In this document: one piece after another, positions 40,576 through 55,731 of the stretch | Position numbering within the stretch: the stretch's first letter is position 1 | Layout of the letters: each line of letters begins with the position of its first letter | From: Dyella psychrodurans | GTDB lineage: Bacteria; Pseudomonadota; Gammaproteobacteria; Xanthomonadales; Rhodanobacteraceae | Assembly: GCF_003363265.1 (NCBI RefSeq) | Contig: NZ_QRBF01000006.1 | Coordinates: 232,120-296,119 of the forward strand | Direction of reading: 5' to 3' | Length of the DNA: 64,000 nt | The notes under the pieces: model-generated | The model's input: only the letters and a program-made list of their open reading frames with translations | Told to the model about the DNA's origin: nothing | The model's database searches: none | Translations under genes and position numbers: made by a program

Positions 40576-42090
40576 CTAAGTGCTTTTCAATCGTAAAAGC
40601 ACGGCCGAACAGGCAGGCAGAGCCACGTTCGCGTCACCGCGAGCATCCGACTCGAGCTGTTGCTGCGATTGATCCTGCCAATCGCCGCTGGCGATGGCGT
40701 CGCTGTCCCGGCCAAGGCTCACGTGATGGACATCGTCAGGCGCTGGTCCCTGAAGTCGCACCACGTCCAGCTTCGCGTGCGGCGGCAGGCCTTCGATCCG
40801 CATCTGGCATGCGCGCGTTTGTTCCTTGTTGAAGATCGCCAGCAACCATTGCCGATCGCGCTGCGCCGCATACGCGGTGACGTTGCCGTTGCCTGTCTGC
40901 AACTCGCTCTCCATCAGATTTGCACCAGCAAAACGGCTGGCGAGCAGCATGCCGTAGTAGAGCGGCAGCGGCGAAAATCCTTCGTCCACGTTGCCCGCGA
41001 TAGGTGCATAGCGCGCACTGACACTGTCGCGTCGAGCCTGCGCATCGGCCGAGCCAAGGTTGGGATGCACGGCGTTGCCCAGCGACGTTTCCACCGCCGT
41101 CAGGGAACCGCCGTGGAAATGGATGCCCGCTACACCACGACTTGCCATCGCCAGCATGAAGTCGCCGCCCCACAACGCCGCCGCGAGTGTATTGCTCACG
41201 CCCAACTGGCCACCCAGGTAGTAGGAGTTCACTTCTGTCAACCGGAAAGGCAATGCACTTTGCGCATGGATGCTCGCGACTTCGGCATAGAAGTCGTTGT
41301 CGGGCGAGAGCAACTCGCTGATGCTGCCGTGCGGCGCGCCGCCACGGTAGTAGTGCCGGCTGAGAAACACCGGATGCGCAGTTTGCTCGTGCGCAAAGTC
41401 CAGCACCCAATCGGTGTTGGCGCCGGTGTCGGGGCCGGCGATCGGCAGGTCGGGCATGGCCTGGCGCAATGCGTTGGCGGTGCGTTGCCAGCGGTCGTGA
41501 TAATCCGCGTACGTCTTGAAGAAGTTGTTCGGTTCGTTGCCGATCTGCACGGCAAGCAGGTCGTCACCCACCGCGTTTTGCACGGCGCGCGCCAGTTCGA
41601 CCGCCATCTCGGGCAGATCGATTTTCAGATTGACGCCGAAGACGAGCTTCCAGCCCGTCGCGCGCAGAAATGCCGCCAGCGGCTGCAGCGCTTCGGGTTT
41701 GAGCGTGATCGGCGGCACCGCTTTGCCGCGCCAATCGCGCAACACCGGCCACGGCGCACTCGGCCGATACGGCCCCCCCAGCGTGAAATCGCTGGTGTTG
41801 CCGCCGATGCGCAGCACGCCATGCGGACCAAGCTGACGGAACAAGGCGATCAGCGCATGGTTGTCGGCCGAAAAGAAACGCGGATCGAGCAGTTGCGCCG
41901 TTTCATAGCTGAAGCCGTACAGGCTTTCGCTGATCGCACCGAGCTGCTTGCGCGGGTTCAATCGCCAGCGGCCTTCGACGCTTGCACCCGATGCATCCGC
42001 CCCCTTCGCGGCAAGGCCTGGCCATGTGGCGGCGGCCAGAAGCGCCAGCGTGGATTGGCAAAAGCGTCTGCGCGACGGACTGTGCTGCAT
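40576..42090 (-). CDS. Secreted GH79-like glycoside hydrolase
   Basis: A 504-residue exported enzyme. The ATG at 42090 gives a Tat-type leader with SRRRFCQS and a hydrophobic stretch ending near GLAA; the frame to 42297 is not protein-like. The barrel contains VLRIGGNTSDF, AVQIGNEPNNFF (acid/base Glu186) and FRLTEVNSYY (nucleophile Glu286), the retaining clan-A layout of GH79 (beta-glucuronidase/heparanase-like). A C-terminal beta-domain ends the protein. Substrates would be beta-linked glycans, perhaps uronic-acid bearing. It flanks the LacI gene divergently and belongs to the sugar locus. Confidence 0.75.
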   Translation of the reverse strand: MQHSPSRRRFCQSTLALLAAATWPGLAAKGADASGASVEGRWRLNPRKQLGAISESLYGFSYETAQLLDPRFFSADNHALIALFRQLGPHGVLRIGGNTSDFTLGGPYRPSAPWPVLRDWRGKAVPPITLKPEALQPLAAFLRATGWKLVFGVNLKIDLPEMAVELARAVQNAVGDDLLAVQIGNEPNNFFKTYADYHDRWQRTANALRQAMPDLPIAGPDTGANTDWVLDFAHEQTAHPVFLSRHYYRGGAPHGSISELLSPDNDFYAEVASIHAQSALPFRLTEVNSYYLGGQLGVSNTLAAALWGGDFMLAMASRGVAGIHFHGGSLTAVETSLGNAVHPNLGSADAQARRDSVSARYAPIAGNVDEGFSPLPLYYGMLLASRFAGANLMESELQTGNGNVTAYAAQRDRQWLLAIFNKEQTRACQMRIEGLPPHAKLDVVRLQGPAPDDVHHVSLGRDSDAIASGDWQDQSQQQLESDARGDANVALPACSAVLLRLKST

Positions 42091-42584
42091 CGGTTGGGGC
42101 TCCTGTGCATGGGGTCTGCTAGTTCTAGGGATTTGTCGTTTACGCAGGGTCAAATGGCAACCCCATCCGCACGCGGTCGCTCGACGAGTGACTCGTTTTG
42201 AGCACTCGAACACTCGCGGGTGGACCGAGACGGTCATGACGCGGACGTGATGTGCGCAAGCGCATGACGGCGCATCGCTGCTTTGCTCCGCATGCACGCG
42301 AATCGCATTTCATGCACGACGCTGAATCGTTGCTATGCGCAGCCGACGACTTGTGCTGCGGCGCCACGCCAAAAGGAACGCGAAGAAAATCCCGCCAAAC
42401 GACCTCTCCTGCCCGCTGGCCGCCCGCAAATTTCTTGCAATGCAGCATGAGAACGCAAAATTTGCCTTTGCAAGTTGTCATGAAAACGTTTACGTTTGCG
42501 CCGACTCGAGCATGAAAACGTTTACGTTTGGCCCGTCGTATGGACTGATATCGTTCGTACTTCCCAGGACGCAGGAAGCTCTCG
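42091..42584. other. Divergent control region of the sugar locus
   Basis: About 494 bases between the GH79-like gene and lacI. Its right part has the two operator copies at 42479-42530. The rest shows no gene or hairpin. Confidence 0.5.
42479..42530. promoter_or_regulatory. Twin LacI-family operators before the regulator
   Basis: A 20-bp sequence is repeated exactly at 42479-42498 and 42511-42530, 32 bp apart (three helical turns). Each contains GAAAACGTTTAC (42482-42493; 42514-42525), an imperfect form of the LacI-family palindrome GTAAACGTTTAC, with one mismatch in the left arm. They lie 55-106 bases before the LacI start and would let LacI repress its own operon, including the receptor. 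Confidence 0.75.
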
Positions 42585-43637
42585 ATGACGACCAAAAACG
42601 CAACGATCAAAGACGTGGCACGCGAGGCGAAAGTCTCCGTCGCCTCCGTGTCGCGCGTGCTCAACGGTACCGGCGGTGTAACTCCCCAAACGCAGAAAAT
42701 AGTGCGGGAAGTGGCGGCCCGCCTGCACTATGTCCCCGATAGCGCCGCGCGCAGCCTGATCACCGGGCGTACCCACACCATCGGGGCGGTGCTGCCTGAC
42801 CTGTACGGCGAGTTCTTCTCCGAACTGATCCGCGGCATCGACCTTGCCGCGCGTGCACGCGGATTGCACCTGTTGGTTTCCAGCTCCCACGACGGCGTGG
42901 AAGATGCCGCCGCCGCGGTGCGCGCGATGCGCGGCCGGGTCGACGGCATGCTGATTCTTTCCGAATACGTCGACGCGGCCTTCCTGGATGCCAACCTGCC
43001 AGCCAATCTGCCGGCGGTACTGCTCAACAGCGCCGTGAAGAGCACGCGCTATCCCGTGCTCAACATCGACAACCGCGCCGGGGCCAGCGCCATGGTGCAG
43101 CACCTGGTGAGCGCGGGCCGCGAGCGCGTGGCTTTCATTGCCGGACCGAAAACCAACTTCGACGCGCAGCAACGCGACAAGGGTTATCGCGCCGCGATGG
43201 CCAAGTACGCACCGGATGCGCCGTTGAATATCGTCGCCGGCGATTTCAGCGAAGAATCCGGCTATCGCGCCGGGCGCGAATTGCTCGCGCAGAAAACCCG
43301 GCCGGATGCGGTGTTCGCCGCCAACGACATGATGGCGGTCGGCTGCATGCTGGCCTTCAAGGAAGCCGGCGTTCGCGTTCCGCAAGACATCGCCCTCGCC
43401 GGCTTCGACGACATTCTGATTGCGCGCTACGTGTCGCCGCCGCTCAGCACGGTGCAGGTGCGTATCGCCGATCTTGGCCGCGTCGCATTGGAACGCCTGG
43501 CCAGCCTGCTGAATCCGGAAGACAGCACGCCGGCTTCGGTGCAAACGCTCGGATGCGACATCGTAGTTCGCGAAACCAGTGGCGGAAGCGTCAGCGCCGC
43601 CGCGCCGCGGCGACCGCGCCGCCCATTACCACCATAA
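42585..43637 (+). CDS. LacI-family transcriptional regulator
   Basis: A 350-residue sugar-responsive repressor. Helix-turn-helix at residues 6-26 (ATIKDVAREAKVSVASVSRVLNG) with the hinge helix about 50-60 (SAARSLITGR). The ligand domain is a periplasmic-binding-protein fold (HTIGAVLPDLYGEFFSELIRGI; NIDNRAGASAMVQHL; RPDAVFAANDMMAVG; VPQDIALAGFDDILIARYVSPPLSTVQ). AGGAAG precedes the ATG. It is followed after 34 bases by the TonB-dependent receptor and preceded by two operators, so it probably autoregulates and controls the glycan locus. The basic tail RRPRRPLPP is a small oddity. Confidence 0.93.
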   Translation: MTTKNATIKDVAREAKVSVASVSRVLNGTGGVTPQTQKIVREVAARLHYVPDSAARSLITGRTHTIGAVLPDLYGEFFSELIRGIDLAARARGLHLLVSSSHDGVEDAAAAVRAMRGRVDGMLILSEYVDAAFLDANLPANLPAVLLNSAVKSTRYPVLNIDNRAGASAMVQHLVSAGRERVAFIAGPKTNFDAQQRDKGYRAAMAKYAPDAPLNIVAGDFSEESGYRAGRELLAQKTRPDAVFAANDMMAVGCMLAFKEAGVRVPQDIALAGFDDILIARYVSPPLSTVQVRIADLGRVALERLASLLNPEDSTPASVQTLGCDIVVRETSGGSVSAAAPRRPRRPLPP

Positions 43638-43671: not shown

Positions 43672-46600
43672 ATGAGAGCAAAGTCGAATTACAAGAAGCT
43701 GGTGCTTGCGCGTTTTATTGCCGCATCGATTACCGCGACCGCGGCCTTACCGATGGTTTCCTTCGCACAGAGCTCTGATGCAAACCTACGCGGCTCCGCC
43801 GCACCCAACACGACCGTTACGGCCAAAAACATCGCGACCGGCTTGACGCGCGTGACCACCTCCGGCAAGGACGGCAGCTACGCGCTGGTGAGCTTGCCGC
43901 CGGGCACCTATCAGGTCGATGCAGGCCCCGGCACCGAACACACCGTCACGCTCACCGTGGCGTCCACCGCCACGCTCAACCTTGCTGCGGCGGCGCCTGC
44001 GGTCAACGCCAAGAACCTCGGCAGTGTGAACGTTAGCGCCACCACGTTGCCTGAGATGACCACCTCGGAGGTGGGCACCACCATTTCGCAACGCGAGATC
44101 GCAACGGTTCCGCAGATCACGCGCAACTTCCTCGAATTTGCCGATACCGTGCCGGGCATGGTGTTCACCGTGCAGCAGAACGGCAATACCAGCCTGCAAT
44201 CCGGCGGCCAGGCGCCATCCGGCATCAACGTTTACATCGACGGCATCGGCCAGAAGAACTACGTGGAGAACGGCGGCATTACCGGTCAGAACTCAAGCCA
44301 GGGCAACCCGTTCCCGCAGCTTGCGATCGGCGAATACAAGGTCGTCACGTCCAACTACAAGGCCGAATTCGACCAGATCTCCAGCGCCGCGGTGATCGCG
44401 GAAACCAAGTCCGGCACCAACGAATTCCACGGCGAAGTGTTCGGCGACTGGACCGATACGCGCCTGCGTTCCATGACGCCCGCGGAAACCGCCACCGACA
44501 AGAAGACACCCTCGCACGACAAGGAATACGGCTTCGCTTTCGGCGGCCCGATCATCCAGGACAAGGCGCATTTCTTCATCGCGTACGAAGGCAAGGAATA
44601 CGACACGCCGATCACGGTCGTGCCCGGCAACGGCTCGCCGCAAATCATTTCGCAACTGCCGGCCAGCGCTCTGGCGCAGCTTGGGCCATCGGGCTTGCCG
44701 TTCAAGGAAAACCTGTACTTCGTCAAGTTCGACTACGAGCCGACCAACCGCGACCGCATCGAAGTGAGCGGCAAGGATCGCGATGAAACCGCCATCACCG
44801 GCACCGGCACGGGCGTGGCTGCATCGTCGGCGCTCAATCAGGTCAACTACGATCGCCGCTTCGACATCCGCTGGGATCACAGCTCCGACAGCTGGTTCAA
44901 CCGCCTGCAGGCCACCTACGAGAACGCGTTCTTCCATCCGACGGCCATCAACTACGGCAACGGCAACGTCTACACGGTCTACAACAACCAGAACCAGAGC
45001 ATTTTGACCGACGGCGCGGCGAGCCCGCTCGGCACGCAAGACAAAGGCCAGAAAGGCCCCGCCCTGCAGGACGACCTCACGTTCAACGACTTCGAATGGC
45101 ACGGCGACCACGTCATCAAGATGGGCGCCAAGATCAAGCTCATACAACTCACCGCACAGGATGCTGGCGAGTTCAATCCGCAGTTCTCCTATGACGTGAC
45201 GCCTACCGGAACCCTGAATGTTCCCTACCAGGTGCTGTTCCCGATCACGCTGCCGGGCACCAGTCCGGTGGTCCGAACCAACGACAAGCAATTTGGTACT
45301 TACATCCAGGACGACTGGACGGTGGACGAGCATCTCACCTTGAACCTGGGTGTTCGCTGGGATTACGAAGAAACGCCTTCGTACCTCAACTTCGTGACGC
45401 CGCAATCGGTCGTCAATGCGCTCAACGCGCTGAACCCCTATCCCGGCGCGACCCCGGGGCAGACCTATGCGCAGTCGCTCGCGCTGGGCGGCGTGAACGT
45501 GAACGACTACATCAGCACGGGTCACAATCGTCACGCGCAAACCAATGAGTTCCAGCCGCGCTTCGGTTTCTCCTATGACATCAACGGCGACCAGGAGCAT
45601 GTGATCCATGGCGGTGCCGGCCGTTCCTACGACCGCACCATCTACGAGATCCTGCAGCTCGAACAGACGAAGCTGGCGCTGTCCGAAGCGACCATCACGT
45701 TTCCGAACCAGTACCACTCGTGCACGGCGAGCCCCACCTGCATTCCGTGGAATCCCGCTTATCTCAACGGCATCGGCGTACTGCAGGGCCTGCTGACCGG
45801 CACCACCGCGGGCCGCGAAGTGGATCTGATGAATAACAACCTCAAGACGCCGTATTCCGATCAGATCAGCATCGGCATGCGCAACCAGATCGGCGATTGG
45901 ATCACCGATGTGACCTTGGCGCAGGTCAACCGTTTCAACGGCGTGGTGTTCACGCTCGGCAATCGTTGGCCCAACGGCGCGTTCTGGCAAAACGGCGGTC
46001 AGCCCTGGAGCCAGAGCATTCCCGGCTTCGGCAATCTGATCATTGCCAACAATGGCCTTACGCAGAAGACGCAGCAGGTGCTGGTGTCGTTGCAAAAGCC
46101 CTACACGCCCGAATCCAAATGGGGCATCAACATTGCGTACACGTATACGAAGGCGAAGCAGAATAACGACAACCAGGATGTGACCGACCAATACGCGTTC
46201 GACGAGGCCACGATCCAGGATTACCCGTACGTCAATTCCGCCGTGGCCAAGCATCGCCTGGTGGTTTCCGGTTCGAACGATGCGCCATGGGGCCTGCTGT
46301 TCGGTTACAAGCTCACGCTGGCCACGCCTATCCCAGGCATCAACCTGGCGTGCTATGGCGCACCGGCTCCGGGCAACGGCAGCCTGGGAAGCGGTTGCCT
46401 CCCGTACTCGTTTACGCCGCCGGGTTCGCGTTTCCTGAGCGGACCGATCTTTGGTTATCGCTCGATCGATTTCCAGGTCACCAAGAACTTCAAGATCTAC
46501 GGCAACTTCGACGGTTACGTGCGTTTCGATCTGCTGAACGCGTTCAACTGGAACAATTACAGCGACTACATCTACAACTACGGTTCCAGCGGCACGTTCA

Positions 46601-46686
46601 ACAAGATCCCGGTGACGTACGACCCCACCGGCAACATTTACGGCACGCCGCGCGAGGTCAAGCTGACCCTTGGCATAAAGTTCTGA
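43672..46686 (+). CDS. Oar/CarO-type TonB-dependent receptor
   Basis: A 1004-residue outer-membrane receptor. GGGAGGGGAG precedes the ATG at 43672; the frame upstream belongs to the LacI coding end. Signal peptide ends near VSFAQ. Next comes a carboxypeptidase-regulatory-like (Ig) domain (NTTVTAKNIATGLTRVTTSGKDGSYALVSLPPGTY), then a plug domain (VYIDGIGQKNYVEN, EYKVVTSNYKAEFDQISSAAVIAETKSGTN), then the barrel to the terminal GIKF. This class imports large molecules such as oligosaccharides with energy from TonB. Beside LacI and several glycanases it is the likely uptake gate for the locus. No SusD partner is visible. A strong terminator follows at 46732. Confidence 0.93.
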   Translation: MRAKSNYKKLVLARFIAASITATAALPMVSFAQSSDANLRGSAAPNTTVTAKNIATGLTRVTTSGKDGSYALVSLPPGTYQVDAGPGTEHTVTLTVASTATLNLAAAAPAVNAKNLGSVNVSATTLPEMTTSEVGTTISQREIATVPQITRNFLEFADTVPGMVFTVQQNGNTSLQSGGQAPSGINVYIDGIGQKNYVENGGITGQNSSQGNPFPQLAIGEYKVVTSNYKAEFDQISSAAVIAETKSGTNEFHGEVFGDWTDTRLRSMTPAETATDKKTPSHDKEYGFAFGGPIIQDKAHFFIAYEGKEYDTPITVVPGNGSPQIISQLPASALAQLGPSGLPFKENLYFVKFDYEPTNRDRIEVSGKDRDETAITGTGTGVAASSALNQVNYDRRFDIRWDHSSDSWFNRLQATYENAFFHPTAINYGNGNVYTVYNNQNQSILTDGAASPLGTQDKGQKGPALQDDLTFNDFEWHGDHVIKMGAKIKLIQLTAQDAGEFNPQFSYDVTPTGTLNVPYQVLFPITLPGTSPVVRTNDKQFGTYIQDDWTVDEHLTLNLGVRWDYEETPSYLNFVTPQSVVNALNALNPYPGATPGQTYAQSLALGGVNVNDYISTGHNRHAQTNEFQPRFGFSYDINGDQEHVIHGGAGRSYDRTIYEILQLEQTKLALSEATITFPNQYHSCTASPTCIPWNPAYLNGIGVLQGLLTGTTAGREVDLMNNNLKTPYSDQISIGMRNQIGDWITDVTLAQVNRFNGVVFTLGNRWPNGAFWQNGGQPWSQSIPGFGNLIIANNGLTQKTQQVLVSLQKPYTPESKWGINIAYTYTKAKQNNDNQDVTDQYAFDEATIQDYPYVNSAVAKHRLVVSGSNDAPWGLLFGYKLTLATPIPGINLACYGAPAPGNGSLGSGCLPYSFTPPGSRFLSGPIFGYRSIDFQVTKNFKIYGNFDGYVRFDLLNAFNWNNYSDYIYNYGSSGTFNKIPVTYDPTGNIYGTPREVKLTLGIKF

Positions 46687-46731
46687 TGTCGTCCAGGGTT
46701 GTATGAAACGGCACGTCTAGTTGGAAGACGA

Positions 46732-46762
46732 ACAAAGCCTGCGTTACGCGGGCTTTGTTTTT
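46732..46762 (+). terminator. Terminator after the TonB-dependent receptor
   Basis: ACAAAGCCTGCG and CGCGGGCTTTGT pair through 12 bp with a 3-base loop (one G-U pair), then TTTT. 45 bases past the receptor stop, so the hydrolase downstream needs its own promoter or read-through. Confidence 0.9.
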
Positions 46763-46931
46763 CGATGTCACAAGATGGAACTTCCCCTCCCCTCAGGGCT
46801 TTCCGAACATGGATCTGGACAAGGAGCACGATTGCCATGAGGCTGCTCGGACCAGACAGTGCGTACCGCATGCTTTGCGCATGCGGTACGTTCCTGCACC
46901 GGATCGTTCGCTACACGACTACCTATTCACG

Positions 46932-48395
46932 ATGTTCAACCGACGTTTCCAACACATCGCTTCAAAAGCACTCGTTGCCGCGCTGCTGGTGATGAGCACG
47001 GGCTCACGGCCCGCTCACGCGCAAGCGCCTGCGACCACCTACGACACGCTGACGAAGCCGCAGCAGGCGATGATCGACGATCTGGAGAAGCGCACCTTCC
47101 AGTGGTTCTGGGACAGCGCCAATCCCGCCAACGGCCTGATACCGGATCACTATCCGGGGCCGTCGTTCTCCAGCATCGCCTCGGTGGGTTTTGGATTGAC
47201 GGCCTACGGCATCGGCGTGGAGCGCGGCTATATCACGCGCCCGCAGGCGGTGGATCGCACCTTGGCGACGTTGCGCTTCTTCGCGAATGCGCAACAGAAC
47301 GACAGCGAGGATAACGCCACCGGCTACCACGGCTTCTTCTATCACTTCCTCGATATGCGGACAGGCAAGCGCAAGGCGCGCTGGACGGAGCTGTCCAGCG
47401 TCGACACGACGCTGCTGCTCGGCGGCGTGTTGTTCGCGCAGTCCTATTACGATCAGGACACGCCGAAGGAAAAAGAGATTCGCGCGCTGGCCGACACCGT
47501 CTATCGACGCGTCGACTGGACCTGGATGCAACCGCGCGCGCCCCAGATCAGCATGGGCTGGACACCGGGCGGCCGATTCATCGATGCCGACTGGAAGGGC
47601 TATGACGAGGGGATGCTGGTTTACATCCTCGCGCTGGGCTCGCCAACGCATGCCATCGGCGACGACGGCTGGTCGGCGTGGACCAGCACGTATCCCAAGA
47701 CCTGGGGCACATTCCAGGATCAGACCTTCCTCAACTTCGCGCCGCTGTTCGGGCACCAGTACAGCGAATCCTGGGTCGACTTCCGTGGCATTCGCGACGC
47801 GTGGAGTCGGCAACACGGTTTCGATTATGTCGAAAATGGCCGTCGCGCTACGTACGCGCAACGCGCATACGCCATCGCCAATCCCGGCCGATGGATGGGT
47901 TACGGCGAGAACATCTGGGGCCTCACGGCGTGCAACGGCCCGGGAGACGTCGTCGGCAAGGCCACCGACGGTAGCACGCGCCAGTTCTTCGGCTACAACG
48001 CGCGCGGCGCCGGGCTGGATTACATCGCCGACGACGGCACCATCGCGCCCACGGCGGCGGGCGGCTCCATCGCCTTTGCGCCGGAGATCGTGGTGCCGGC
48101 GCTGCAGGCGATGAAAGATCGCTACGGTCAGTACGTCTACGATCGCTACGGCTTTGTCGATGCGTTCGACCCGAGCTTCGATGCGAACAGTACGTTGAAC
48201 ACAGGCAGGCGGGTGCCCGGCGTGGGCTGGTTCGATACCGTGCAATTGGGCATCGACCAGGGTCCCATCGTATTGATGATCGAGAACTGGCGCAGCGGAT
48301 TCGTCTGGCGCGTGATGCGCAAGAATCCGTATATCCGCAAAGGACTCGAACGCGCGGGCTTCACGGGCGGATGGCTGGATAAAGCGGCGAAATAG
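46932..48395 (+). CDS. Exported glucoamylase-family (PF10091, GH144-like) hydrolase
   Basis: A 487-residue exported enzyme. The ATG at 46932 opens a signal peptide (MFNRRFQHIASKALVAALLVM, ending PAHAQ); the long upstream extension to 46755 overlaps the terminator and is not used. Helical-barrel features: EKRTFQWFWDSANPANGLIPDHYP, SIASVGFGLTAYGIGVERGYI, WTELSSVDTTLLLGGVLFAQ, GYGENIWGLTACNGP and a C-terminal GPIVLMIENWRSGFVW. These fit the PF10091 glucoamylase family, which includes the endo-beta-1,2-glucanases of GH144. Substrate is therefore a beta-glucan by family analogy only. The SBP gene starts 2 bases after its stop, so they share a transcript. Confidence 0.85.
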   Translation: MFNRRFQHIASKALVAALLVMSTGSRPAHAQAPATTYDTLTKPQQAMIDDLEKRTFQWFWDSANPANGLIPDHYPGPSFSSIASVGFGLTAYGIGVERGYITRPQAVDRTLATLRFFANAQQNDSEDNATGYHGFFYHFLDMRTGKRKARWTELSSVDTTLLLGGVLFAQSYYDQDTPKEKEIRALADTVYRRVDWTWMQPRAPQISMGWTPGGRFIDADWKGYDEGMLVYILALGSPTHAIGDDGWSAWTSTYPKTWGTFQDQTFLNFAPLFGHQYSESWVDFRGIRDAWSRQHGFDYVENGRRATYAQRAYAIANPGRWMGYGENIWGLTACNGPGDVVGKATDGSTRQFFGYNARGAGLDYIADDGTIAPTAAGGSIAFAPEIVVPALQAMKDRYGQYVYDRYGFVDAFDPSFDANSTLNTGRRVPGVGWFDTVQLGIDQGPIVLMIENWRSGFVWRVMRKNPYIRKGLERAGFTGGWLDKAAK

Positions 48396-48397: not shown

Positions 48398-49717
48398 ATG
48401 CATGCGACCCGGGGACGAACAGGCTCTGCCACGGCGTTGTTCCGCCGATTGGCGAGCTGCGTCGCCCTCGCGGGGCTGCTGGCGGGTTGCGCGCAACGCG
48501 CCGACGACGCACACACGCTGACGTTCTGGACCATCGGTCGCGAGGGTGAAGCCGTTACGCAGCTGCTACCGGAGTTTCAGCGCGAAAACCCGGATATCCA
48601 TATCGATCTGCAGCAGATGCCGCTGGGGGCGGCACACCAGAAGCTCCTTACCGCTTTCGCCGGCGATTCCTTGCCGGACATGACGCAGCTTGGCAACACC
48701 TGGATACCCGAGTTTGTCGCCTTGCATGCGCTGGAACCCTTGCAGTCGCGCGTCGCCCATTCGACCGTGGTGAATCCGGACGACTACTTCCCCAGCATCT
48801 GGGCCACCAATGTCTACGACGGCGCGCTTTACGGCGTGCCGTGGTACGTGGATACGCGCCTGCTTTTTTATCGCAGCGACCTGCTCAAGGCCGCGGGCTT
48901 CGATGCGCCACCGCGCGACTGGTCGCAATGGCGGCACATGCTTGCGGTGCTGAGCCATCCGCAGCAAGGGATTTACGGCATCCTGCTGCCCACCAACGAG
49001 TACGAGCAACTGATGTCGCTGGCCTTGCAGCAGCCCGATCCGCTTCTGCGCGACGGCGGCCGCTACGGCAATTTCGAGAGTGCCGGTTTCAAGCGTGCGC
49101 TGGCGTTCTACGTGGATACGTTCAAGCTGCGTGAAGCGCCGGCGATCACCAATGTCGAAGCCGGCAATCCGTGGTCGGAATTCGGTCGCGGCGTGTACGA
49201 CTTCTATTTTTCCGGCCCCTGGAACATCGGCGAATTCCGCAAGCGGCTGCCCGCCGACGAGCAAGGCAATTGGGATACGGCGCCGCTGCCGGGACCGGAT
49301 GGCCCCGGCGCTTCGGTAGCAGGCGGCTCCAGTCTGGTGATCTTCCGCGGATCGAACCACAAGCAGGCGGCGTGGAAGCTCATCGAATACCTCTCGCGTC
49401 CCGACGTGCAACAGCGTTTCTACGAGCTGCTCGGCGACATGCCGCCACGCCGCAGTTCGTGGGATGGCGGCCATCTCCATGACGATCCGAAAGCGGTCGC
49501 GTTCCGGGAACAGCTGGAACGCGTGAAACCCACGCCGCCCGTGCCGGAATGGGAACAGATCGCCAACGAGATGCAGCTCGTGGCGGCGCAAGCCGTGGCC
49601 GGCGACCTGACCATCGACCAGGCCGCTGCCGAGATCAACCGTCGTGCCGATCGCATTCTGGAAAAGCGCCGCTGGGTGCTGGCGCATGGGCCGACGTTGC
49701 CAGGAGCGCAACGATGA
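48398..49717 (+). CDS. ABC sugar transporter substrate-binding lipoprotein
   Basis: A 439-residue periplasmic binding protein of the carbohydrate-uptake CUT1 class (MalE-like SBP_bac_1). Lipobox LAGC near residue 31 anchors it to the inner membrane. Typical features: TFWTIGREGEAVTQLLPEFQRENPDI, GVPWYVDTRLLFYRSDLLKAAG, FYFSGPWNIGEF and the C-terminal TIDQAAAEINRRADRIL. Two bases after the hydrolase gene and overlapping the first permease by ATGA. Confidence 0.94.
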   Translation: MHATRGRTGSATALFRRLASCVALAGLLAGCAQRADDAHTLTFWTIGREGEAVTQLLPEFQRENPDIHIDLQQMPLGAAHQKLLTAFAGDSLPDMTQLGNTWIPEFVALHALEPLQSRVAHSTVVNPDDYFPSIWATNVYDGALYGVPWYVDTRLLFYRSDLLKAAGFDAPPRDWSQWRHMLAVLSHPQQGIYGILLPTNEYEQLMSLALQQPDPLLRDGGRYGNFESAGFKRALAFYVDTFKLREAPAITNVEAGNPWSEFGRGVYDFYFSGPWNIGEFRKRLPADEQGNWDTAPLPGPDGPGASVAGGSSLVIFRGSNHKQAAWKLIEYLSRPDVQQRFYELLGDMPPRRSSWDGGHLHDDPKAVAFREQLERVKPTPPVPEWEQIANEMQLVAAQAVAGDLTIDQAAAEINRRADRILEKRRWVLAHGPTLPGAQR

Positions 49718-50592
49718 ATCGCACGCGCGCCGCGTGGCTGTTCCTAGCGCCTGCCCTGCTTATCCTTGGCGTCTTTTTCCTGCTGCCGGTGCTCGCCGCC
49801 TTCGGGTTGAGCCTTACCGACTACGATCTCTACGCGCTGGCCGATATCCATAACCTGCGCTTCATCGCGCTGCAGAATTACTGGACGCTTTTGCAGCGGC
49901 GCGAATTCTGGTCCGCGCTCGGGCACACGCTCTACTTCGTGATCGTGGGCGTGCCGTTGTCGATGGCCGCATCGCTAGGCGCGGCCCTGCTGTTGAACTC
50001 GCCGCTGGCACGTTGCAAAGCCTTTTTCCGCACGGCGTTGTTCGCGCCGGTCGTCACCACCGTGGTGGCTGTCGCGGTGGTATGGCGCTATCTGTTCAAT
50101 ACCAAATACGGCCTGGTGAATGACACGCTCGGCCTGATGGGCATTCATCCAGTCGACTGGCTGGGCAATCCGCATTGGGCCATGCCCGCGATCATCCTGT
50201 TCGCGGTGTGGAAGAACTTCGGCTACAACATGATCATCTTCCTGGCCGGCTTGCAGGCTGTTCCCGGCGATCTGTACGAAGCCGCGCGCATCGATGGCGC
50301 GTCGGCATGGCAGCAGTTTCGCCACATCACGTTGCCTATGCTGGGGCCGACGTTGTGGATGGTGGCCATCATCACCGTATCCGGCTATTTCCAGCTGTTC
50401 GCCGAGCCGTATGTGATGACCGAAGGCGGCCCGCTGCAGAGCACGACCAGCGTGCTGTACCTGATGTACAACGAAGGCTTCAAGTGGTGGAACATCGGCT
50501 CCGCCTCGGCGATTGCGTTCCTGCTGTTCGCGATCCTGTTTGCCGTGACGATGCTGATGCTTCGCATGGGGCGGCGCGGAGGCAGCGTATGA
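49714..50592 (+). CDS. ABC sugar transporter permease 1
   Basis: A 292-residue CUT1 (MalF/UgpA-like) permease with about six membrane segments. The coupling EAA loop reads EAARIDGASAWQQFRHITLPML. Start overlaps the SBP stop (ATGA) and its own stop overlaps the second permease start (ATGA). Confidence 0.94.
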   Translation: MNRTRAAWLFLAPALLILGVFFLLPVLAAFGLSLTDYDLYALADIHNLRFIALQNYWTLLQRREFWSALGHTLYFVIVGVPLSMAASLGAALLLNSPLARCKAFFRTALFAPVVTTVVAVAVVWRYLFNTKYGLVNDTLGLMGIHPVDWLGNPHWAMPAIILFAVWKNFGYNMIIFLAGLQAVPGDLYEAARIDGASAWQQFRHITLPMLGPTLWMVAIITVSGYFQLFAEPYVMTEGGPLQSTTSVLYLMYNEGFKWWNIGSASAIAFLLFAILFAVTMLMLRMGRRGGSV

Positions 50593-51410
50593 GCCCGCGC
50601 CTCGCCAAAGCCTTGATCAACGGCTTCCTGATCGGCGGCGCGGTGATAGCACTGTTTCCGCTGCTCTGGATGGTGTCGGCGTCCTTCATGCAGCCCGGCG
50701 AAGCCAGCGCCCTGCCGCCGCCGCTATGGTCGGCGCATGCCACGATGCGCAACTATCAGGAGTTGTTCCTGCGCGCGGGCATGGGGCGCTATCTGCTCAA
50801 CAGCCTGCTGGTCTCCACGGCGATCACCGTGCTGTCGCTGGTATTCAATCTCATGGCGGGCTACGCCTTCGCCAAATTGCGTTTCGCCGGTCGCGATCGC
50901 CTGTTCAAGGTTTTGCTGGGCATGCTGATCATTCCGGCGCAGGTGGCGATGCTACCGTTGTTTCTGATGTTGAAGTACATGGGCCTGGTGAACAGCTACG
51001 GCGGCGTGATCGTGCCGGCGATGGCGACGGCGTTCGGCACTTTCCTCGTGCGCCAGTACGCGCGCGGCATTCCCGACGAATTGATGGAAGCCGCGCGCAT
51101 CGACGGTGCGAGCGAGCTGCGCATCTTCGTGCGGATCGTGATGCCGCTGCTCAAGCCGATCATGGTGACGCTGGCGATCTTCACCTTCCTCACCGCATGG
51201 AACGACTTCATGTGGCCGTTGATCGTGCTGACCGGGCAGGAGCATTACACGCTACCGCTCGGCCTTGCTTCGCTTTCGCGGGAACACGCGCAGGACAGCG
51301 AGCTGATGATGGCCGGCTCGGTGATCACGGTGCTGCCGGTGCTGGTGCTGTTCCTGGCACTGCAGCGGTATTACCTCGAAGGATTGCTGCTGGGCAGCGT
51401 GAAGGGATAG
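50589..51410 (+). CDS. ABC sugar transporter permease 2
   Basis: A 273-residue CUT1 (MalG/UgpE-like) permease with six membrane segments and the EAA loop EAARIDGASELRIFVRIVMPLL. The ATG at 50589 overlaps the first permease stop by ATGA. It ends 47 bases before the convergent ATPase gene. Confidence 0.94.
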   Translation: MSPRLAKALINGFLIGGAVIALFPLLWMVSASFMQPGEASALPPPLWSAHATMRNYQELFLRAGMGRYLLNSLLVSTAITVLSLVFNLMAGYAFAKLRFAGRDRLFKVLLGMLIIPAQVAMLPLFLMLKYMGLVNSYGGVIVPAMATAFGTFLVRQYARGIPDELMEAARIDGASELRIFVRIVMPLLKPIMVTLAIFTFLTAWNDFMWPLIVLTGQEHYTLPLGLASLSREHAQDSELMMAGSVITVLPVLVLFLALQRYYLEGLLLGSVKG

Positions 51411-51456
51411 GAGCGCCGACATGATGCTTTCATCGACATCGACCACGCAGCGGGCA

Positions 51457-52548
51457 TCAGACGATGCGCGTGCCGCTGGCCGTGTCGAAGAAATGCAGAC
51501 GATCGCCGGCAAAGCCCAGGGGCAGCGCGCTGCCCCGTTGCGGTACCTCACCGGGTGCCACGCGCGAGACCAGCGCCTGAGCGCCGTGACACAGGTTCAA
51601 AAAGACTTCGTTGCCGACAGGCTCGATCACCTCAACCGTGGCCGTAAGCACCGCCTGGTTTGCATCGACGGGTCGCAAATCTTCAGGACGCACGCCGAGC
51701 ACGATCTCGCGGCCGGTCCACGGTTCCAGCGCTGCGCTCTGCGCCGGCAGGCCGCCCAAGGCCAGCGCGCCGCGCGCCGTATCCAGTCGCCATTGACCAT
51801 CGCGCTGCAGCCGGCCACGCAGCAGATTCATGGCGGGCGAACCGAGAAAGCCTGCCACGAACAGATTGGCGGGTTTGTCGTAGAGATTCATCGGCGTGTC
51901 GATCTGCTGGATCCTGCCGCCGTCCAGCACCACGATGCGCTCTCCCAACGTCATCGCCTCGACCTGGTCGTGGGTCACGTAGATCATGGTCGTGCCCAGT
52001 TGCCGGTGCAGCCGCGCAATCTCCACGCGCATCGAAAGACGCAGCCGCGCATCGAGATTGGAGAGCGGTTCGTCGAGCAGGAAGACCTTGGGCTCGCGCA
52101 CCAGCGCGCGTCCCAGCGCCACCCGCTGACGTTGCCCGCCGGACAGTGCCGCCGGCGTCGCATCGAGGCGGTTTTCCAGTTCGAGCAGCCGCGCGGCATC
52201 GCGCACCCGGCGCTCGATCTCGTCCCGCTGCTTGCCGCGAAGGCGCAGGCCGAAGCTGAGGTTCTCCGCGACCGTCATGTGCGGATACAGCGCGTAGTTC
52301 TGAAACACCATCGCGATGTCGCGATCCTTGGGCGCGACGTCGTTGACCACGCGGTCGTCGATGCGCAAGGTTCCACCGGAGATCGACTCCAGGCCGGCGA
52401 TCATCCTGAGCAGCGTCGTCTTGCCGCAGCCCGACGGACCGACCAGCACCAGCAACTCGCCGCCGGCGATGTCGAAGCTGGCATCGTCAACGCCGACGTG
52501 GCCATTGGGATACACCTTGCGCACGCGATCCAGGCTGACGGTTGCCAT
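51457..52548 (-). CDS. ABC sugar transporter ATPase (MalK/UgpC type)
   Basis: A 363-residue nucleotide-binding subunit. Walker A GPSGCGKTT (38-46), signature LSGGQRQRVALGRAL, Walker B VFLLDEPLSNLD and a C-terminal TOBE-like regulatory domain from about 235 (GVRPEDLRPVDANQAVLTATVEVIEPVGNEVFL). It powers the CUT1 permeases encoded beside it, but is transcribed in the opposite direction from them and divergently from the beta-glucosidase. Confidence 0.95.
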   Translation of the reverse strand: MATVSLDRVRKVYPNGHVGVDDASFDIAGGELLVLVGPSGCGKTTLLRMIAGLESISGGTLRIDDRVVNDVAPKDRDIAMVFQNYALYPHMTVAENLSFGLRLRGKQRDEIERRVRDAARLLELENRLDATPAALSGGQRQRVALGRALVREPKVFLLDEPLSNLDARLRLSMRVEIARLHRQLGTTMIYVTHDQVEAMTLGERIVVLDGGRIQQIDTPMNLYDKPANLFVAGFLGSPAMNLLRGRLQRDGQWRLDTARGALALGGLPAQSAALEPWTGREIVLGVRPEDLRPVDANQAVLTATVEVIEPVGNEVFLNLCHGAQALVSRVAPGEVPQRGSALPLGFAGDRLHFFDTASGTRIV

Positions 52549-52647
52549 CGAGATGCATCACTCCGTGTTCTAACGAATCATGCCGCATACGTGAAGAACC
52601 GTGCCGATACGCTGCATGGAAGGACAACATTGAGCTATTCTGCCGAC

Positions 52648-52659
52648 GTAATCGATTAC
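52648..52659. promoter_or_regulatory. LacI-type palindrome GTAATCGATTAC before the beta-glucosidase
   Basis: A perfect 12-bp palindrome 36 bases before the GH1 start, in the divergent spacer with the ATPase gene. It matches GTAAACGTTTAC at 10 of 12 positions, so it is either a weaker site of the same regulator or the site of a related one. Its location suits repression of both neighbours. Confidence 0.55.
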
Positions 52660-52694
52660 ATCAAGCCGCAATGCGGCATACAAGGTTTCGCATC

Positions 52695-54047
52695 ATGACC
52701 GGCAGTTATCGTTTCCCCGCGGATTTCGTCTGGGGCGCCGCCACCTCGGCGTATCAGATCGAAGGATCGCCCCTGGCCGACGGCGCAGGTCCCAGCATCT
52801 GGCAGCGCTTCGCGCACACGCCCGGCATGATGGCCAACGGCGATACCGGCGATGTCGCGTGCGATCACTATCGCCGCTTCCGGGACGATGTGCAGCTGAT
52901 GCGCGCGCTCGGCCTGAAGAGTTACCGCTTCAGCGTGGCGTGGGCGCGTGTGTTGCCGGACGGTACCGGCCGCATCAACCAGAAGGGCCTGGATTTCTAT
53001 TCCAAGCTGGTCGACGAGCTGCTGGAAAACGGCATCGAACCGAACGTCACGCTGTTCCACTGGGATTTGCCGGCGGCGCTCGACGATCGCGGCGGTTGGT
53101 TGAACCGCGATATCGCGCACTGGTTTGCGGAATACGCGGGCGTGCTGTTCAAGGCACTCGATGGCAGGGTGAAGCGCTGGTCGACGCTCAACGAGCCGTG
53201 GGTGGTGACGGACGGCGGCTATCTGCACGGTGCGCTCGCGCCCGGTCATCGCAATAAATACGAAGCGCCCATCGCCGCGCACAATCTGATGCGTGCGAGT
53301 GGTGCGGGCATTCAGGCCTATCGCGCGCTCGGCAAGCACGAGATCGGCGTGGTGTTCAATATCGAGCCGAAATACCCAGCGTCGAACAGCGCCGAGGATC
53401 TGGCTGCCACGCGTCGTGCGCATGCGTATATGAACGAGCAGTTTGCCGACCCGGCCTTGCTGGGTCGTTACCCGCCGGAGCTGAAAGAGATCTTCGGCGA
53501 TGCGTGGCCGGAATTTCCGGATGAGGATTTTCAGCTGACGAAGCAGCCCGTCGACTTCGTGGGCATCAACTACTACACGCGTGCCGTGGTTCGCCACGAC
53601 GCGAATGCCTACCCGCTCAAGTCCGTGCCCTTGCGGCAACCGAATACCACGCAGACCGAAACCGGATGGGAGGTCTACGAGCAGGGACTGATCGATACGC
53701 TCGCGTGGTTCAAGGATCGCTACGGCGATATGCCGCTCTATGTCACCGAAAACGGAGCGGCTTTTTACGACGCGCCGGTGGCCGAAGGGGATGTGGTGCA
53801 CGATCCTTTGCGTACTGACTATCTACGCAAGCATCTGAAGGCACTGCACAAGTCGATCGAGTCCGGCGTGAACCTCAAGGGTTATTACGCGTGGTCGTTG
53901 CTCGATAACCTGGAATGGTCGCTGGGCTTTTCCAAGCGGTTTGGGTTGTATCACGTGGACTTCGCGACGCAGAAGCGCACGCCGAAGGCGTCGGCGAAGT
54001 TTTATGCGCGGGTGATTGAGAGCAATGGTGCCGCGCTGACCGACTGA
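52695..54047 (+). CDS. GH1 beta-glucosidase
   Basis: A 450-residue cytoplasmic retaining beta-glycosidase. The ATG at 52695 fits (MTGSYRFPADFVWGAATSAYQIEG is the standard GH1 N-terminus); the frame further up is not protein. Acid/base Glu167 in TLNEP, nucleophile Glu352 in TENG; FHWDLP is also present. It hydrolyses disaccharides such as cellobiose, laminaribiose or sophorose after import. Downstream of the LacI-type palindrome; stop meets the GH39 gene tail to tail. Confidence 0.96.
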   Translation: MTGSYRFPADFVWGAATSAYQIEGSPLADGAGPSIWQRFAHTPGMMANGDTGDVACDHYRRFRDDVQLMRALGLKSYRFSVAWARVLPDGTGRINQKGLDFYSKLVDELLENGIEPNVTLFHWDLPAALDDRGGWLNRDIAHWFAEYAGVLFKALDGRVKRWSTLNEPWVVTDGGYLHGALAPGHRNKYEAPIAAHNLMRASGAGIQAYRALGKHEIGVVFNIEPKYPASNSAEDLAATRRAHAYMNEQFADPALLGRYPPELKEIFGDAWPEFPDEDFQLTKQPVDFVGINYYTRAVVRHDANAYPLKSVPLRQPNTTQTETGWEVYEQGLIDTLAWFKDRYGDMPLYVTENGAAFYDAPVAEGDVVHDPLRTDYLRKHLKALHKSIESGVNLKGYYAWSLLDNLEWSLGFSKRFGLYHVDFATQKRTPKASAKFYARVIESNGAALTD

Positions 54048-54058
54048 CGGCACCGTTG

Positions 54059-54084: not shown

Positions 54085-54101
54085 ATAAACGCGCGGCAAG
54101 C

Positions 54102-55664
54102 TCAGTGCAACTCGACCACCACCAGGCCTTGCGGCGGAATGTCGATCATCAGATGACCGTCGTGCAACACGACCGATTCCGGCTTGGCCATCTTTCCCGC
54201 CGCACGCAATTCGACAATCTGCTCGCGACTCGGAAAATCCGGCCGCCCCATGCGATCGAATGCGGCGACCGCGTTGCCATGCTGCTCATCCAGGCGCCAT
54301 ACGGTGGCCTGCACACCCGCGTGCAGATGCGCGACATCCACGGCGAAGTGCTTCATCGCACCTCGCGGTTCGCCCTTGGTGTAGTTCGCGGTATCGCCGA
54401 CCGGCGGCGCGTAGTTCCACAAGGCCAGCACCACCGTGCCGTCTGCACGCCGCGTCGCCAACGCAGTGTCGGAAGAGAGCGGCAGTCGCGTGTCGCCCAA
54501 TCGATGCAGCATCGCGAACGCATTGAACGCGGGCTTCTCGATGCGATCCGCGGCGATGAGTCCGAAACCGCCGTAGAAAGGCGTCTTCACCACGCCCTGC
54601 TCTTCGAACACGTCGGAGAACGACCAGTAACTCATGACGTCGACCTTGCCGGCGCATTCGCGGATGGTGTTGGCCATCCACGGCCCCATGTAGACCGCGT
54701 CGGTGACGTTGGGCAGGTTGGCGTAGGACGCGTTGTATTCGCTGAAGATGAGGGGGAGCTTCGGATACGGCGAAGCGGCGATTTCGTCGTGCACCTTGCT
54801 CACCGCGCGGCATACCATGTCCGCACGCGCGATGTTCTCGTCGGTCTTGAACACGTTCGGCGCGGTGTCGTCGCCGTAGACATGCGTGCTCACGAAATCG
54901 ACCGGCACCTTGGCATCGTGCGCGTGCTTGAGGAACACCGGCACCCACGCAGCCTGCGCAGTGCTGGGACCGCCTACGCGCAGGCGCGGACTGACGGCTT
55001 TCAGCGCGCGCACCGTGTGGTCATACAGGGTGAAATACGTGGGCTGCACCGGCGAACCGCCCCAGAAGGCGAGGTTGGGCTCGTTCCACACTTCGAAGTA
55101 CCAGGTGGACACTTCGCCGATGCCGTAGCGCGCGATCAGGTGTTGCGCGAACGCGCCGATCATCGCGTCCCATTCGGCGTAATCCTTCGGCGGCATCACG
55201 TTCGGGTGATACCAGAAGTCGTGCACCTTCGATGGTTCCGAACTCAGTTCCGGCGGCATGAAGCTGAGTTCCACATAAGGCTTCACGCCGCGCTCGAGCA
55301 GCCCGTCGTAGATCTGGTCGACGTAGCTGAAGTTGTAAGCGATCTTGCCGTTCGCATCGCGGTACACGACGCCCACATCGCGGTCGAAAATGCCGTGGAA
55401 GCGCACGTACTGGAAACCGGTGGCGGCGTGCACCGCCTCGAGGTCCTTGCGGTAGTCGTCGCGTAGCGCAAGCACCGCGCGTCCGGAACCGAACATCTGT
55501 TCCCAGAAATGGGAAAGCGGGGTGCCATGCGCGGTCGCATCGACATTCAGCGAAACCGTGTCGGGCGACGAAGACGCGGCCTGGGCCGTGCCCACCAGGA
55601 TGGCAAATAGCGCAGCGGCGCAGACGCGGGGTGCGATGCGACGGAGCAAGGACTGATCGGACAT
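54102..55664 (-). CDS. Secreted GH39-family glycosidase
   Basis: A 520-residue exported enzyme. The ATG at 55664 has GGGAG 6 bases before; signal peptide ends TAQAASS. Clan-A barrel with acid/base Glu195 in FEVWNEPNLAFW and nucleophile Glu309 in LIFSEYNASY, as in GH39 beta-xylosidases and alpha-iduronidases. A C-terminal beta-domain follows. It would trim xylose or a related sugar from side chains in the periplasm or outside. A GTAAACGTTTAC operator lies 56 bases upstream. Confidence 0.88.
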   Translation of the reverse strand: MSDQSLLRRIAPRVCAAALFAILVGTAQAASSSPDTVSLNVDATAHGTPLSHFWEQMFGSGRAVLALRDDYRKDLEAVHAATGFQYVRFHGIFDRDVGVVYRDANGKIAYNFSYVDQIYDGLLERGVKPYVELSFMPPELSSEPSKVHDFWYHPNVMPPKDYAEWDAMIGAFAQHLIARYGIGEVSTWYFEVWNEPNLAFWGGSPVQPTYFTLYDHTVRALKAVSPRLRVGGPSTAQAAWVPVFLKHAHDAKVPVDFVSTHVYGDDTAPNVFKTDENIARADMVCRAVSKVHDEIAASPYPKLPLIFSEYNASYANLPNVTDAVYMGPWMANTIRECAGKVDVMSYWSFSDVFEEQGVVKTPFYGGFGLIAADRIEKPAFNAFAMLHRLGDTRLPLSSDTALATRRADGTVVLALWNYAPPVGDTANYTKGEPRGAMKHFAVDVAHLHAGVQATVWRLDEQHGNAVAAFDRMGRPDFPSREQIVELRAAGKMAKPESVVLHDGHLMIDIPPQGLVVVELH

Positions 55665-55719
55665 GGCAACTCCCTGTGGCGACATGACGGGTGGGCCGAT
55701 CCAGCGGCGACGCGCCAAT

Positions 55720-55731
55720 GTAAACGTTTAC
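55720..55731. promoter_or_regulatory. LacI-family operator GTAAACGTTTAC before the GH39 gene
   Basis: A perfect 12-bp palindrome 56 bases upstream of the GH39 start. It shares 11 of 12 bases with the two copies before lacI, 13 kb away, which links this gene to the same regulator. Confidence 0.75.

Follow-up and report, generated by a model that had tools for sequence, protein, structure and literature searches.

The genes between positions 40576 and 55731 of a 64,000-nucleotide stretch of the Dyella psychrodurans genome (the window) very probably encode a beta-1,2-glucan scavenging system under LacI control. This reading comes from comparison, through the families of the genes, their synteny, the operators that they share and their nearest relatives of known function, and it would amount to a complete Gram-negative beta-1,2-glucan route, comprising receptor, importer, repressor and operator, that is spread through Lysobacterales. 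To our knowledge, soil consumers of this sugar polymer, which other bacteria make, and its passage through the outer membrane have been little described. According to excerpts of PMC12102758, beta-1,2-glucans serve many bacteria as factors in symbiosis and virulence.

Searches against Pfam, NCBIfam and PDB sequences identified in this locus genes for a GH79-type protein, a LacI-family regulator, an Oar-type receptor, a PF10091/GH144 protein, a binding protein (SBP), two CUT1-type permeases, GH1 and GH39. The families named in the initial annotation were thus recovered, while its hydrolase count, the strand of the ATPase gene and several start positions had to be corrected. Four hydrolase genes were found instead of the announced five (the reasoning given there also lists four), and several open frames begin too early; likelier starts, picked by eye, are 42090 for GH79, 46932 for GH144, 52695 for GH1 and 55664 for GH39. 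The plus-strand ORF 51421-52698 was rejected as a source of protein: no Pfam family matched it and the ATPase gene sits on the opposite strand. Other flanking ORFs without a Pfam match exist.

The GH144 protein (46932..48395, plus strand; open frame from 46755; PF10091; secreted, as judged by eye) is most likely an endo-beta-1,2-glucanase. It belongs to the same family as XcSGL (XCC2207), a proven endo-beta-1,2-glucanase of Xanthomonas campestris, whose sequence in PDB 8XUL it matched with 596 bits and 58% identity, and the clan-defining residues are retained, namely E at the position of E239 (Q in the crystallised XcSGL mutant), F286 and Y367 in XcSGL numbering. In excerpts of PMC12102758, three residues are said to define the GH144 clan, which is discussed as requiring that subsites -3 and +2 be occupied and as releasing no single glucose. 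XcSGL is reported there to act on beta-1,2-glucan alditol but on none of the other polysaccharides of the panel, which did not include xylan. The GH144 gene is the only PF10091 gene of its genome.

The tight coupling of this gene to the importer genes, described previously, was confirmed: the GH144 stop (48395) and the SBP ATG (48398) are separated by 2 bp, and ATGA overlaps were located at 49714-49717 and 50589-50592. The SBP gene (48398..49717, plus strand) encodes a lipoprotein with an LLAGC lipobox recognised by eye, predicted from the PDB search to bind sophoro-oligosaccharides. It scored 502 bits to 3UOR, 223 bits to Lin1841 and 134 bits to the next group; Lin1841, outscored by 3UOR alone, is the nearest PDB binding protein of known ligand, and binds sophoro-oligosaccharides according to excerpts of PMC12369401 and PMC8861115. 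In Xanthomonas-like genomes, the crystallised 'MalE' 3UOR directly follows XcSGL in the matching block. One paper lists the binding specificity of 3UOR as unknown, and nothing further on its ligand was found in the open-access papers searched; the present comparisons suggest that it may bind sophoro-oligosaccharides, which provides a ligand hypothesis for this crystallised orphan. The SBP gene is followed by those of two CUT1 permeases, one of MalF/UgpA type (49714..50592, plus strand; PF00528; NCBIfam UgpA, 125 bits, under its cut-off) and one of MalG/UgpE type (50589..51410, plus strand; PF00528; NCBIfam UgpE, 151 bits, under its cut-off). The UgpC/MalK-class ATPase (51457..52548; NF008653, 474 bits, cut-off 432) is encoded on the minus strand, divergently from GH1, and is the sole UgpC-class match in the genome above the cut-off of 432, the runner-up reaching 279 bits. 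The CUT1 importer, reported as complete, has its SBP, two permeases and MalK/UgpC ATPase only if this minus-strand gene is counted.

The receptor gene (43672..46686, plus strand; PF13620 and PF25183) encodes a TonB-dependent receptor of the Oar type, with an N-terminal carboxypeptidase-like extension and a plug predicted inside the barrel. PF07715 was absent from its Pfam matches; the predicted model includes the plug, and its alignment to PirA, Cir and BtuB begins at residue 92-128. Transport of beta-1,2-glucan would be assigned to this receptor through guilt by association. Its combination with an ABC importer, presented earlier as a hybrid with less coverage than SusCD systems, is indeed present, and the layout proved to be widespread across Lysobacterales; moreover, excerpts of PMC8861115 already propose uptake by a TonB-dependent transporter and then an ABC importer for the beta-1,2-glucan cluster of Ignavibacterium album. 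None of the open-access papers searched dealt with tryptophan halogenase together with TonB dependence, carbohydrates and Xanthomonas.

The gene of the LacI-family regulator (42585..43637, plus strand; PF00356 and PF13377) is preceded by two predicted operators, both TGAAAACGTTTACG (42481..42494 and 42513..42526), and pattern scans placed a third, TGTAAACGTTTACG, before GH39 (55719..55732), so that the palindromes noted at both ends of the locus are real. A variant with three mismatches, CGTAATCGATTACA, was predicted between the ATPase and GH1 genes (52647..52660). When the window was scanned with TGTAAACGTTTACATT, allowing up to three mismatches, six matches were obtained, representing three places on both strands, compared to 0.11 expected from shuffles. 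A scan of the whole 4.54 Mb genome with TGWAAACGTTTWCRTW (at most one mismatch) returned just the places 42481, 42513 and 55719, and none with the reversed-pattern control; the canonical form of the palindrome is confined in this genome to the locus. The shorter RTRAACGTTYAY found the 55719 place only, and is of little value by itself because its reversed control matched twice per strand.

A palindrome close to TGTAAACGTTTACA was found upstream of lacI in 48 of 54 related loci, and between the ATPase and GH1 genes in 22/23 (25 loci have both genes; L009 and L048, with ATPase matches shorter than 600 bases, were left out). Given its three mismatches, the 52647 site is believed credible solely through this conservation. 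With up to two mismatches, an operator was present at -150..+20 of lacI in 48/54 cases, of the ATPase gene in 20/29 and of GH1 in 21/25, compared to 0/59 for the SBP gene, 0/56 and 0/55 for the MalF- and MalG-type permease genes, 1/80 for GH144 and 4/58 for the receptor gene; approximately 1.2% of size-matched random windows carry such a match. Genes with too little upstream sequence were dropped from these counts, all 54 lacI loci being kept. Six operator sites had no mapped gene downstream, and all of these precede GH3 genes. The single GH3 protein compared with the PDB scored 730 bits to 5XXL, which we take to be BT_3567, and 578 bits to Lin1840. BT_3567 and Lin1840 are both described in excerpts of PMC12369401 as associated with beta-1,2-glucan.

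The order LacI, TonB receptor, GH144, SBP and two permeases was kept in 47 of 80 related loci, and that of GH144, SBP and permeases in 55 of them. Counting only the GH144 matches listed, at least 94 of the 95 SBP-bearing genomes of the family have the SBP gene no more than 5 kb from a GH144 gene. The synteny and operator counts leave out the window itself (L001), tblastn matches below 80 bits (70 bits in one comparison, which included the Xanthomonas-like stretches) and weaker overlapping matches, and L003 and L102, apparently one genome, were never both entered in one ratio. A common palindrome is thus found before transcription units and kept in relatives, and this conservation, together with synteny, strongly supports at the sequence level the earlier proposal of a single LacI regulon for receptor, importer and hydrolases.

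The GH1 gene (52695..54047, plus strand; PF00232; TIGR03356, 590 bits, cut-off 478.5) encodes a predicted beta-glucosidase with no signal peptide recognised by eye. Only its position would indicate a linkage preference for sophoro-oligosaccharides; sophorose-specific GH1 enzymes of the SGR_2426 type are described, in an excerpted source, as having Trp291 and Gln229 at subsite +1. The GH39 hydrolase (54102..55664, minus strand; PF01229; secreted, as judged by eye) is far from canonical xylosidases in the PDB search. Its best PDB matches are beta-xylosidases at 327 bits or less, compared to 700 bits for the other GH39 of the genome, both being pairwise scores, and these point to the latter as the canonical xylosidase. 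E196 and E310, presumably the clan GH-A catalytic pair (the Glu of NEP and the second Glu), were invariant in eight sequences. The locus GH39 also keeps residues that we take to form the -1 subsite of beta-xylosidases and, given these and the xylosidase matches, it could act on a xyloside. Glucosidases can reportedly occur in GH39, CmGH1 being said to be a beta-glucosidase of this family; 5Z3K, presumably CmGH1, scored 39 bits to the locus GH39 and is therefore not a close relative. We know of no beta-1,2-glucan specificity in GH39, and in one paper from an open-access search for this family with sophorose, GH39 occurs only in the title of a reference.

The operator precedes an unlinked GH39 gene in 30 of the 37 importer-bearing (SBP-bearing) genomes examined, and GH39 in 0/4 of those without SBP. 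These 41 genomes are part of the 58 with a GH39 place of at least 59% identity; 12 with linked genes and five with unlinked ones (G139, G119, G071, G084 and G111) were left out, and in two of the four lacking SBP (G083 and G118) GH39 lies within 15 kb of GH144. No operator was found at -150..+20 of GH39 in the named loci (0/5; the L003 site is just beyond that range). What is new here is that a GH39 gene annotated as a xylosidase carries the locus operator where it is unlinked. Because the same operator is used there, operator sharing suggests that GH39, filed as a xylan enzyme, may belong to the beta-1,2-glucan pathway, a link hidden by database names. We regard the chances as evenly balanced that the secreted Rhodanobacteraceae GH39 clade comprises beta-1,2-glucan enzymes, whose targets would be sophoro-oligosaccharides or the bonds that branch or close natural cyclic glucans and which the LacI of the GH144 locus would control in trans, and that the 'MalE' of Xanthomonas, 3UOR, serves as a receptor for sophoro-oligosaccharides rather than for maltose or trehalose.

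The GH79-type protein (40576..42090, minus strand; open frame to 42297; secreted by eye, with a Tat-like N-terminus) is a doubtful member of the regulon. Its best PDB match was the beta-glucuronidase of A. capsulatum (246 bits), and the IGNEPN and LTEVN motifs are retained. Relatives with up to 52% identity occur in 20 other genomes of the family, 0/20 lying within 15 kb of GH144 among the GH144 matches listed, and 0/7 of the loci with scanned sequence had an operator. Among the genomes examined and the GH144 matches listed, linkage of GH79 to the locus is peculiar to this genome, which argues against conserved membership.

In the proposed pathway, the Oar-type receptor would carry the glucan or its large fragments across the outer membrane with TonB, and secreted GH144 would cut it internally into sophoro-oligosaccharides. 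These would be captured by the lipoprotein SBP, imported by the transporter that both permeases form with the ATPase of the minus strand, and converted to glucose by cytoplasmic GH1, while secreted GH39 may trim or debranch glucan fragments outside the inner membrane. LacI would repress the promoters until released by a sophoro-oligosaccharide or a related sugar.

The initial annotation offered both a beta-1,2-glucan and a branched glycan with uronic acid or xylose as substrates. The former is favoured by GH144, SBP and synteny; xylan or uronic acid as the main reading was set aside once the genome's GH39 genes had been compared with each other and the placement of GH79 had been considered. 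A xylan or glucuronoxylan locus, with GH39 as xylosidase, GH79 as glucuronidase and GH1 as exo-glycosidase, appears highly improbable. It would agree with the PDB matches of GH39 to beta-xylosidases and of GH79 to a beta-glucuronidase, with the many source records that name GH39 relatives xylan 1,4-beta-xylosidase, with a UxaC encoded in the genome and with the lack of xylan from the XcSGL substrate panel in the excerpts of PMC12102758. However, GH144 and SBP indicate beta-1,2-glucan, the 700-bit GH39 lies in a 5-kb stretch (L110) without an operator, GH79 is not a conserved neighbour, and no xylanase family was found among the Pfam and NCBIfam matches of the locus. Sophorosides from plants, in which flavonoids or saponins carry beta-1,2-diglucosides and from which GH79 and GH39 would strip glucuronic acid and xylose, are hardly probable at all as the substrate: GH1, GH39 and GH79 do occur together in this genome, and excerpts of PMC12369401 report natural Sop-type compounds mainly as sophorosides, but the GH144 clan is discussed as having the subsite requirement given above and as freeing no single glucose (excerpts of PMC12102758), and the linkage of GH79 is, as stated, unique.

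With beta-1,2-glucan as the preferred substrate, its origin has to be considered. It is very unlikely here that the cell recycles osmoregulated periplasmic glucan of its own making, although such recycling could be real in f2, a different family of this order, since 53 of its 59 SBP-bearing genomes also have MdoG/OpgG-D. In family f1, MdoG was missing from 56 of 59 genomes with SBP. A cyclic glucan synthase would be seen as a PF10091 protein. The Dyella genome has no match to MdoG/OpgG-D and no PF10091 protein besides GH144, so the glucan is probably foreign. It is also conceivable, though unlikely, that the GH39 operators answer a different LacI protein which recognises this target too, such as that of an alpha-glucan regulon, and that GH39 is unrelated to beta-1,2-glucan. 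GH39 neighbours were scanned in four of 40 stretches: a six-hairpin glycosidase and an MFS gene lie beside it in both L111 and L128, together with GH31 in the former and an alpha-amylase-family gene in the latter; moreover, seven importer-bearing genomes have no site before GH39. Against this stand the restriction of canonical sites to the Dyella locus, the presence of the GH39 site in most genomes with SBP (30/37) and in none of those lacking it (0/4), the position of GH39 after GH1 on the same strand in L103, L104, L106 and L109, and the single site in the 11.5 kb of L111, which precedes GH39. The neighbours in the remaining scanned stretches, L117 and L123, either encode glutamine synthetase or gave no match.

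Near relatives of XcSGL (96-97%) precede SBP and permease genes in six Xanthomonas-like stretches; five of this kind (L097-L101) have the block with all genes from LacI through the second permease, with different operator variants and no GH1, ATPase or GH39 match in the sequence covered. Listeria innocua (lin1839-1841) resembles Dyella in pairing a beta-glucosidase with an ABC importer that has a Sop-binding protein, but with an SOGP phosphorylase and GH3 in place of GH144 and GH1, according to excerpts of PMC12369401 and PMC8861115. The Streptomyces griseus cluster SGR_2422-2427 shares the Lin1841-like SBP and ABC genes and has a sophorose-specific GH1, but its glucanase is GH193, and excerpts of PMC12369401 mention no TonB receptor. 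The SGL cluster of Ignavibacterium album likewise combines GH144 with a Lin1841-like SBP, but contains a GH35 transferase and SOGP homologues, and a LacI regulon is not mentioned in the excerpts of PMC8861115. The Xanthomonas sux locus resembles that of Dyella in its LacI-type repressor, TonB receptor and role in sugar scavenging, but has an MFS transporter and a sucrose hydrolase (excerpts of PMC1790865). In the receptors, the contrast with sux lies in the plug predicted for Dyella. Listeria innocua, as a Gram-positive bacterium, has no outer membrane receptor. SusCD loci of Bacteroidota also contain a TonB receptor and co-regulated hydrolases, whereas Dyella would rely on ABC capture in place of SusD. 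In agreement with the initial annotation, no SusD family, and hence no SusD-like lipoprotein beside the receptor, was found among the Pfam matches of the ten locus ORFs scanned (a set without the ATPase).

No RNA element was matched in an Rfam search of positions 36000-62000, and the promoter (1 site, 3.8 in shuffles) and terminator (15 sites, 14.4 in shuffles) scans were close to or below their controls. RNA folding of 46680-46935 (z -3.1) predicted a terminator-like hairpin between the receptor and GH144 genes (46730..46765, plus strand), which is missing from the list of the consensus terminator scan, and a second hairpin of 12 unbroken pairs, counted by script (46862..46890, plus strand). 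Their sequence was not conserved in the 11 relatives scanned; a GC-rich hairpin of 8-11 pairs occupies the same place in L003, L007, L010, L013 and L019, and hairpins of 3-6 pairs only were found in the other relatives.

The locus at 40576-55731, on contig C13 of a genome of 4.54 Mb, carries in order genes for a GH79-type hydrolase (-), a LacI-type regulator (+), an Oar-type TonB receptor (+), a GH144 (PF10091) enzyme (+), a sugar-binding lipoprotein (SBP, +), two CUT1 permeases (permF and permG, +), a UgpC-class ATPase (-), a GH1 (+) and a GH39 hydrolase (-). Very probably, judging from these sequences, it is a regulon for scavenging beta-1,2-glucan and represents a Gram-negative variant of the sophoro-oligosaccharide-importing clusters of Listeria, Streptomyces and Ignavibacterium; past gene content, synteny and operators, we infer the mechanism. 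The tight gene couplings described in the initial annotation proved exact when coordinates were checked, and the hydrolase genes number four rather than five. Its complete importer was retained in the sense that all parts are present, owing to the ATPase, which sits on the minus strand; the long forward ORF facing it has no Pfam match.

The window proteins were searched by tblastn against 80 loci of relatives, the best 80 of at least 576. The series LacI-receptor-GH144-SBP-both permeases was recovered in this order in 47/80 and GH144-SBP-permeases in 55/80, part of the loci lacking the full block being truncated by contig ends. A further pattern, GH144 without LacI, receptor, SBP or permeases, was found in 18/80, including Spirosoma, Acetobacter and Gluconobacter loci. 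Within the same family (147 genomes), GH144 is present in 112 and SBP in 95, and among the matches listed SBP lies within 5 kb of GH144 in 94 of these 95. The ATPase and GH1 genes form a divergent pair across loci, which in some follows the permeases and in others stands ahead of LacI or is inverted. The receptor-GH144 gap of 12/12 loci inspected (L009, L029 and ten more) contains an ORF of 502-530 aa, and both of the two scanned encode a PF04820 tryptophan-halogenase-family flavoprotein; no PF04820-type ORF is present in this gap of the window. Two strong hairpins, the first with a T run, occur there (46730-46890), possibly as a step-down between the receptor and the downstream genes. In a Dyella relative, GH144 (G125:C1:1790480-1791922) contains one internal TAG stop, possibly a pseudogene or an assembly error.

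Order-wide, seven genomes of genus g58 among the matches listed encode SBPs 92-98% identical to 3UOR, the crystallised Xanthomonas 'MalE'. In six g58 stretches (L096-L101), a GH144 96-97% identical to the X. campestris endo-beta-1,2-glucanase XcSGL is followed by SBP and two permeases; LacI lies upstream in L097-L101, L096 starts within the receptor, and the L101 stretch has no receptor match. We infer from sequence that g58 would be Xanthomonas and 3UOR the SBP belonging to the GH144 locus.

The palindrome TGTAAACGTTTACA (CG core, up to 2 mismatches) was found within -150 to +20 of lacI in 48/54 loci, compared to 243/20000 and 236/20000 random windows of equal size in two runs. In the same interval it precedes the ATPase in 20/29 and GH1 in 21/25 cases, with counts of 0/59 for SBP, 0/56 for permF, 0/55 for permG, 1/80 for GH144, 4/58 for the receptor and 0/5 for GH39. 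If up to 3 mismatches are allowed, 22/23 loci have it in the ATPase-GH1 gap (sole miss, L004); the window's site is CGTAATCGATTACA. In the Dyella genome, a 16-base pattern with up to 1 mismatch, which cannot detect the variant site and leaves weaker sites elsewhere possible, had no matches other than the locus's three canonical sites. An extra operator in L012, L043, L055, L068, L071 and L074 lies upstream of a GH3 gene in all six, and therefore one regulon seems to be served by different beta-glucosidases in different lineages. One such GH3 gave a best PDB score of 745 bits, with 730 for 5XXL (which we take to be BT_3567) and 578 for Lin1840 of the Listeria innocua beta-1,2-glucan cluster.

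GH39 orthologues mostly lie far from GH144, with a match within 15 kb in 15/65 genomes among the matches listed. Of 58 genomes with an orthologue at 59% identity or more, 41 were examined for the palindrome (up to 3 mismatches, -300 to +120): it lies upstream of GH39 in 30/37 genomes with SBP (exceptions G105, G011, G108, G025, G129, G043 and G019) versus 0/4 without (Fisher p 0.003, kinship ignored). The 40 stretches L111-L150 (321,782 bases) contain 32 sites, and 30 stretches have one before GH39; as background, 950/20000 random 420-base windows drawn from the same stretches contain a site, true sites included. These operators may be under another LacI, as GH39 is flanked in L111 and L128 by genes of alpha-glucan type and an MFS gene. 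Under control by the locus's own LacI, the unlinked GH39 would be the regulon's least expected member. Behind it, L111:1076-4740 and L128:6899-10584 encode an MFS transporter and a six-hairpin glycosidase whose weak matches are MGH1-like, rhamnosidase and GDE_C; the glycosidase might cleave alpha-1,6 linkages in cyclic glucans.

In the linked loci L103, L104, L106 and L109, GH1 and then GH39 lie on one strand. Against operator control of GH39, a site close to the gene start was found for just one of five GH39 matches in the 80 loci, that of L003; those of L024, L026 and L027 are downstream of GH1, and that of L012 is a 50% paralogue. In L012, L103, L104 and L105, a second kind of GH39 paralogue (~50% identity) is inserted within the operon, between GH144 and SBP. 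The genome's other GH39 (C1:1144602), with 700 bits to 4M29/4EKJ, is predicted to be its canonical beta-xylosidase, and its stretch contains no palindrome site. The locus GH39 shares 36% identity with it and scores no higher than 327 bits against solved xylosidases, although xylosidases are still its best PDB matches. It keeps the -1 subsite residues of xylosidases, so its substrate may be a xyloside, and many source records name its orthologues xylan 1,4-beta-xylosidase.

Membership of GH79 in the regulon is uncertain, and it is treated as a neighbour. About 390 bases separate its probable start (42090) from the closest operator; relatives occur in 20 other genomes of the 147 (identity up to 52%), none within 15 kb of GH144 among the matches listed, with an operator in 0/7 stretches examined and a match in 0/80 of the searched loci.

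Two known routes to beta-1,2-glucan are of the MdoG/OpgG-D type and the PF10091 type. Neither was found in the Dyella genome, since it gave no MdoG/OpgG-D match in a search that detects the E. coli control, and its sole PF10091 gene is the GH144. In the order sample, MdoG is absent from 56/59 SBP-bearing genomes of this family and present in 53/59 of another family. Given the missing routes and the absence of MdoG from most of its family, the locus in Dyella and its kin most likely serves a foreign glucan; own-glucan recycling is possible in the Xanthomonas-like genomes.

Directly before the locus, 38117-39745 (-) encodes a pyridine nucleotide-disulphide reductase that also has a thioredoxin-like domain and by eye resembles AhpF. 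An aldose 1-epimerase family protein (PF01263; 59808-61202, -), 4 kb past GH39, could be part of sugar use. The window also encodes a large RHS-repeat protein with a weak ChitinaseA_N match (137-5740, -) and an autotransporter (19860-23858, +) in which bacterial Ig and cadherin-like domains are numerous.
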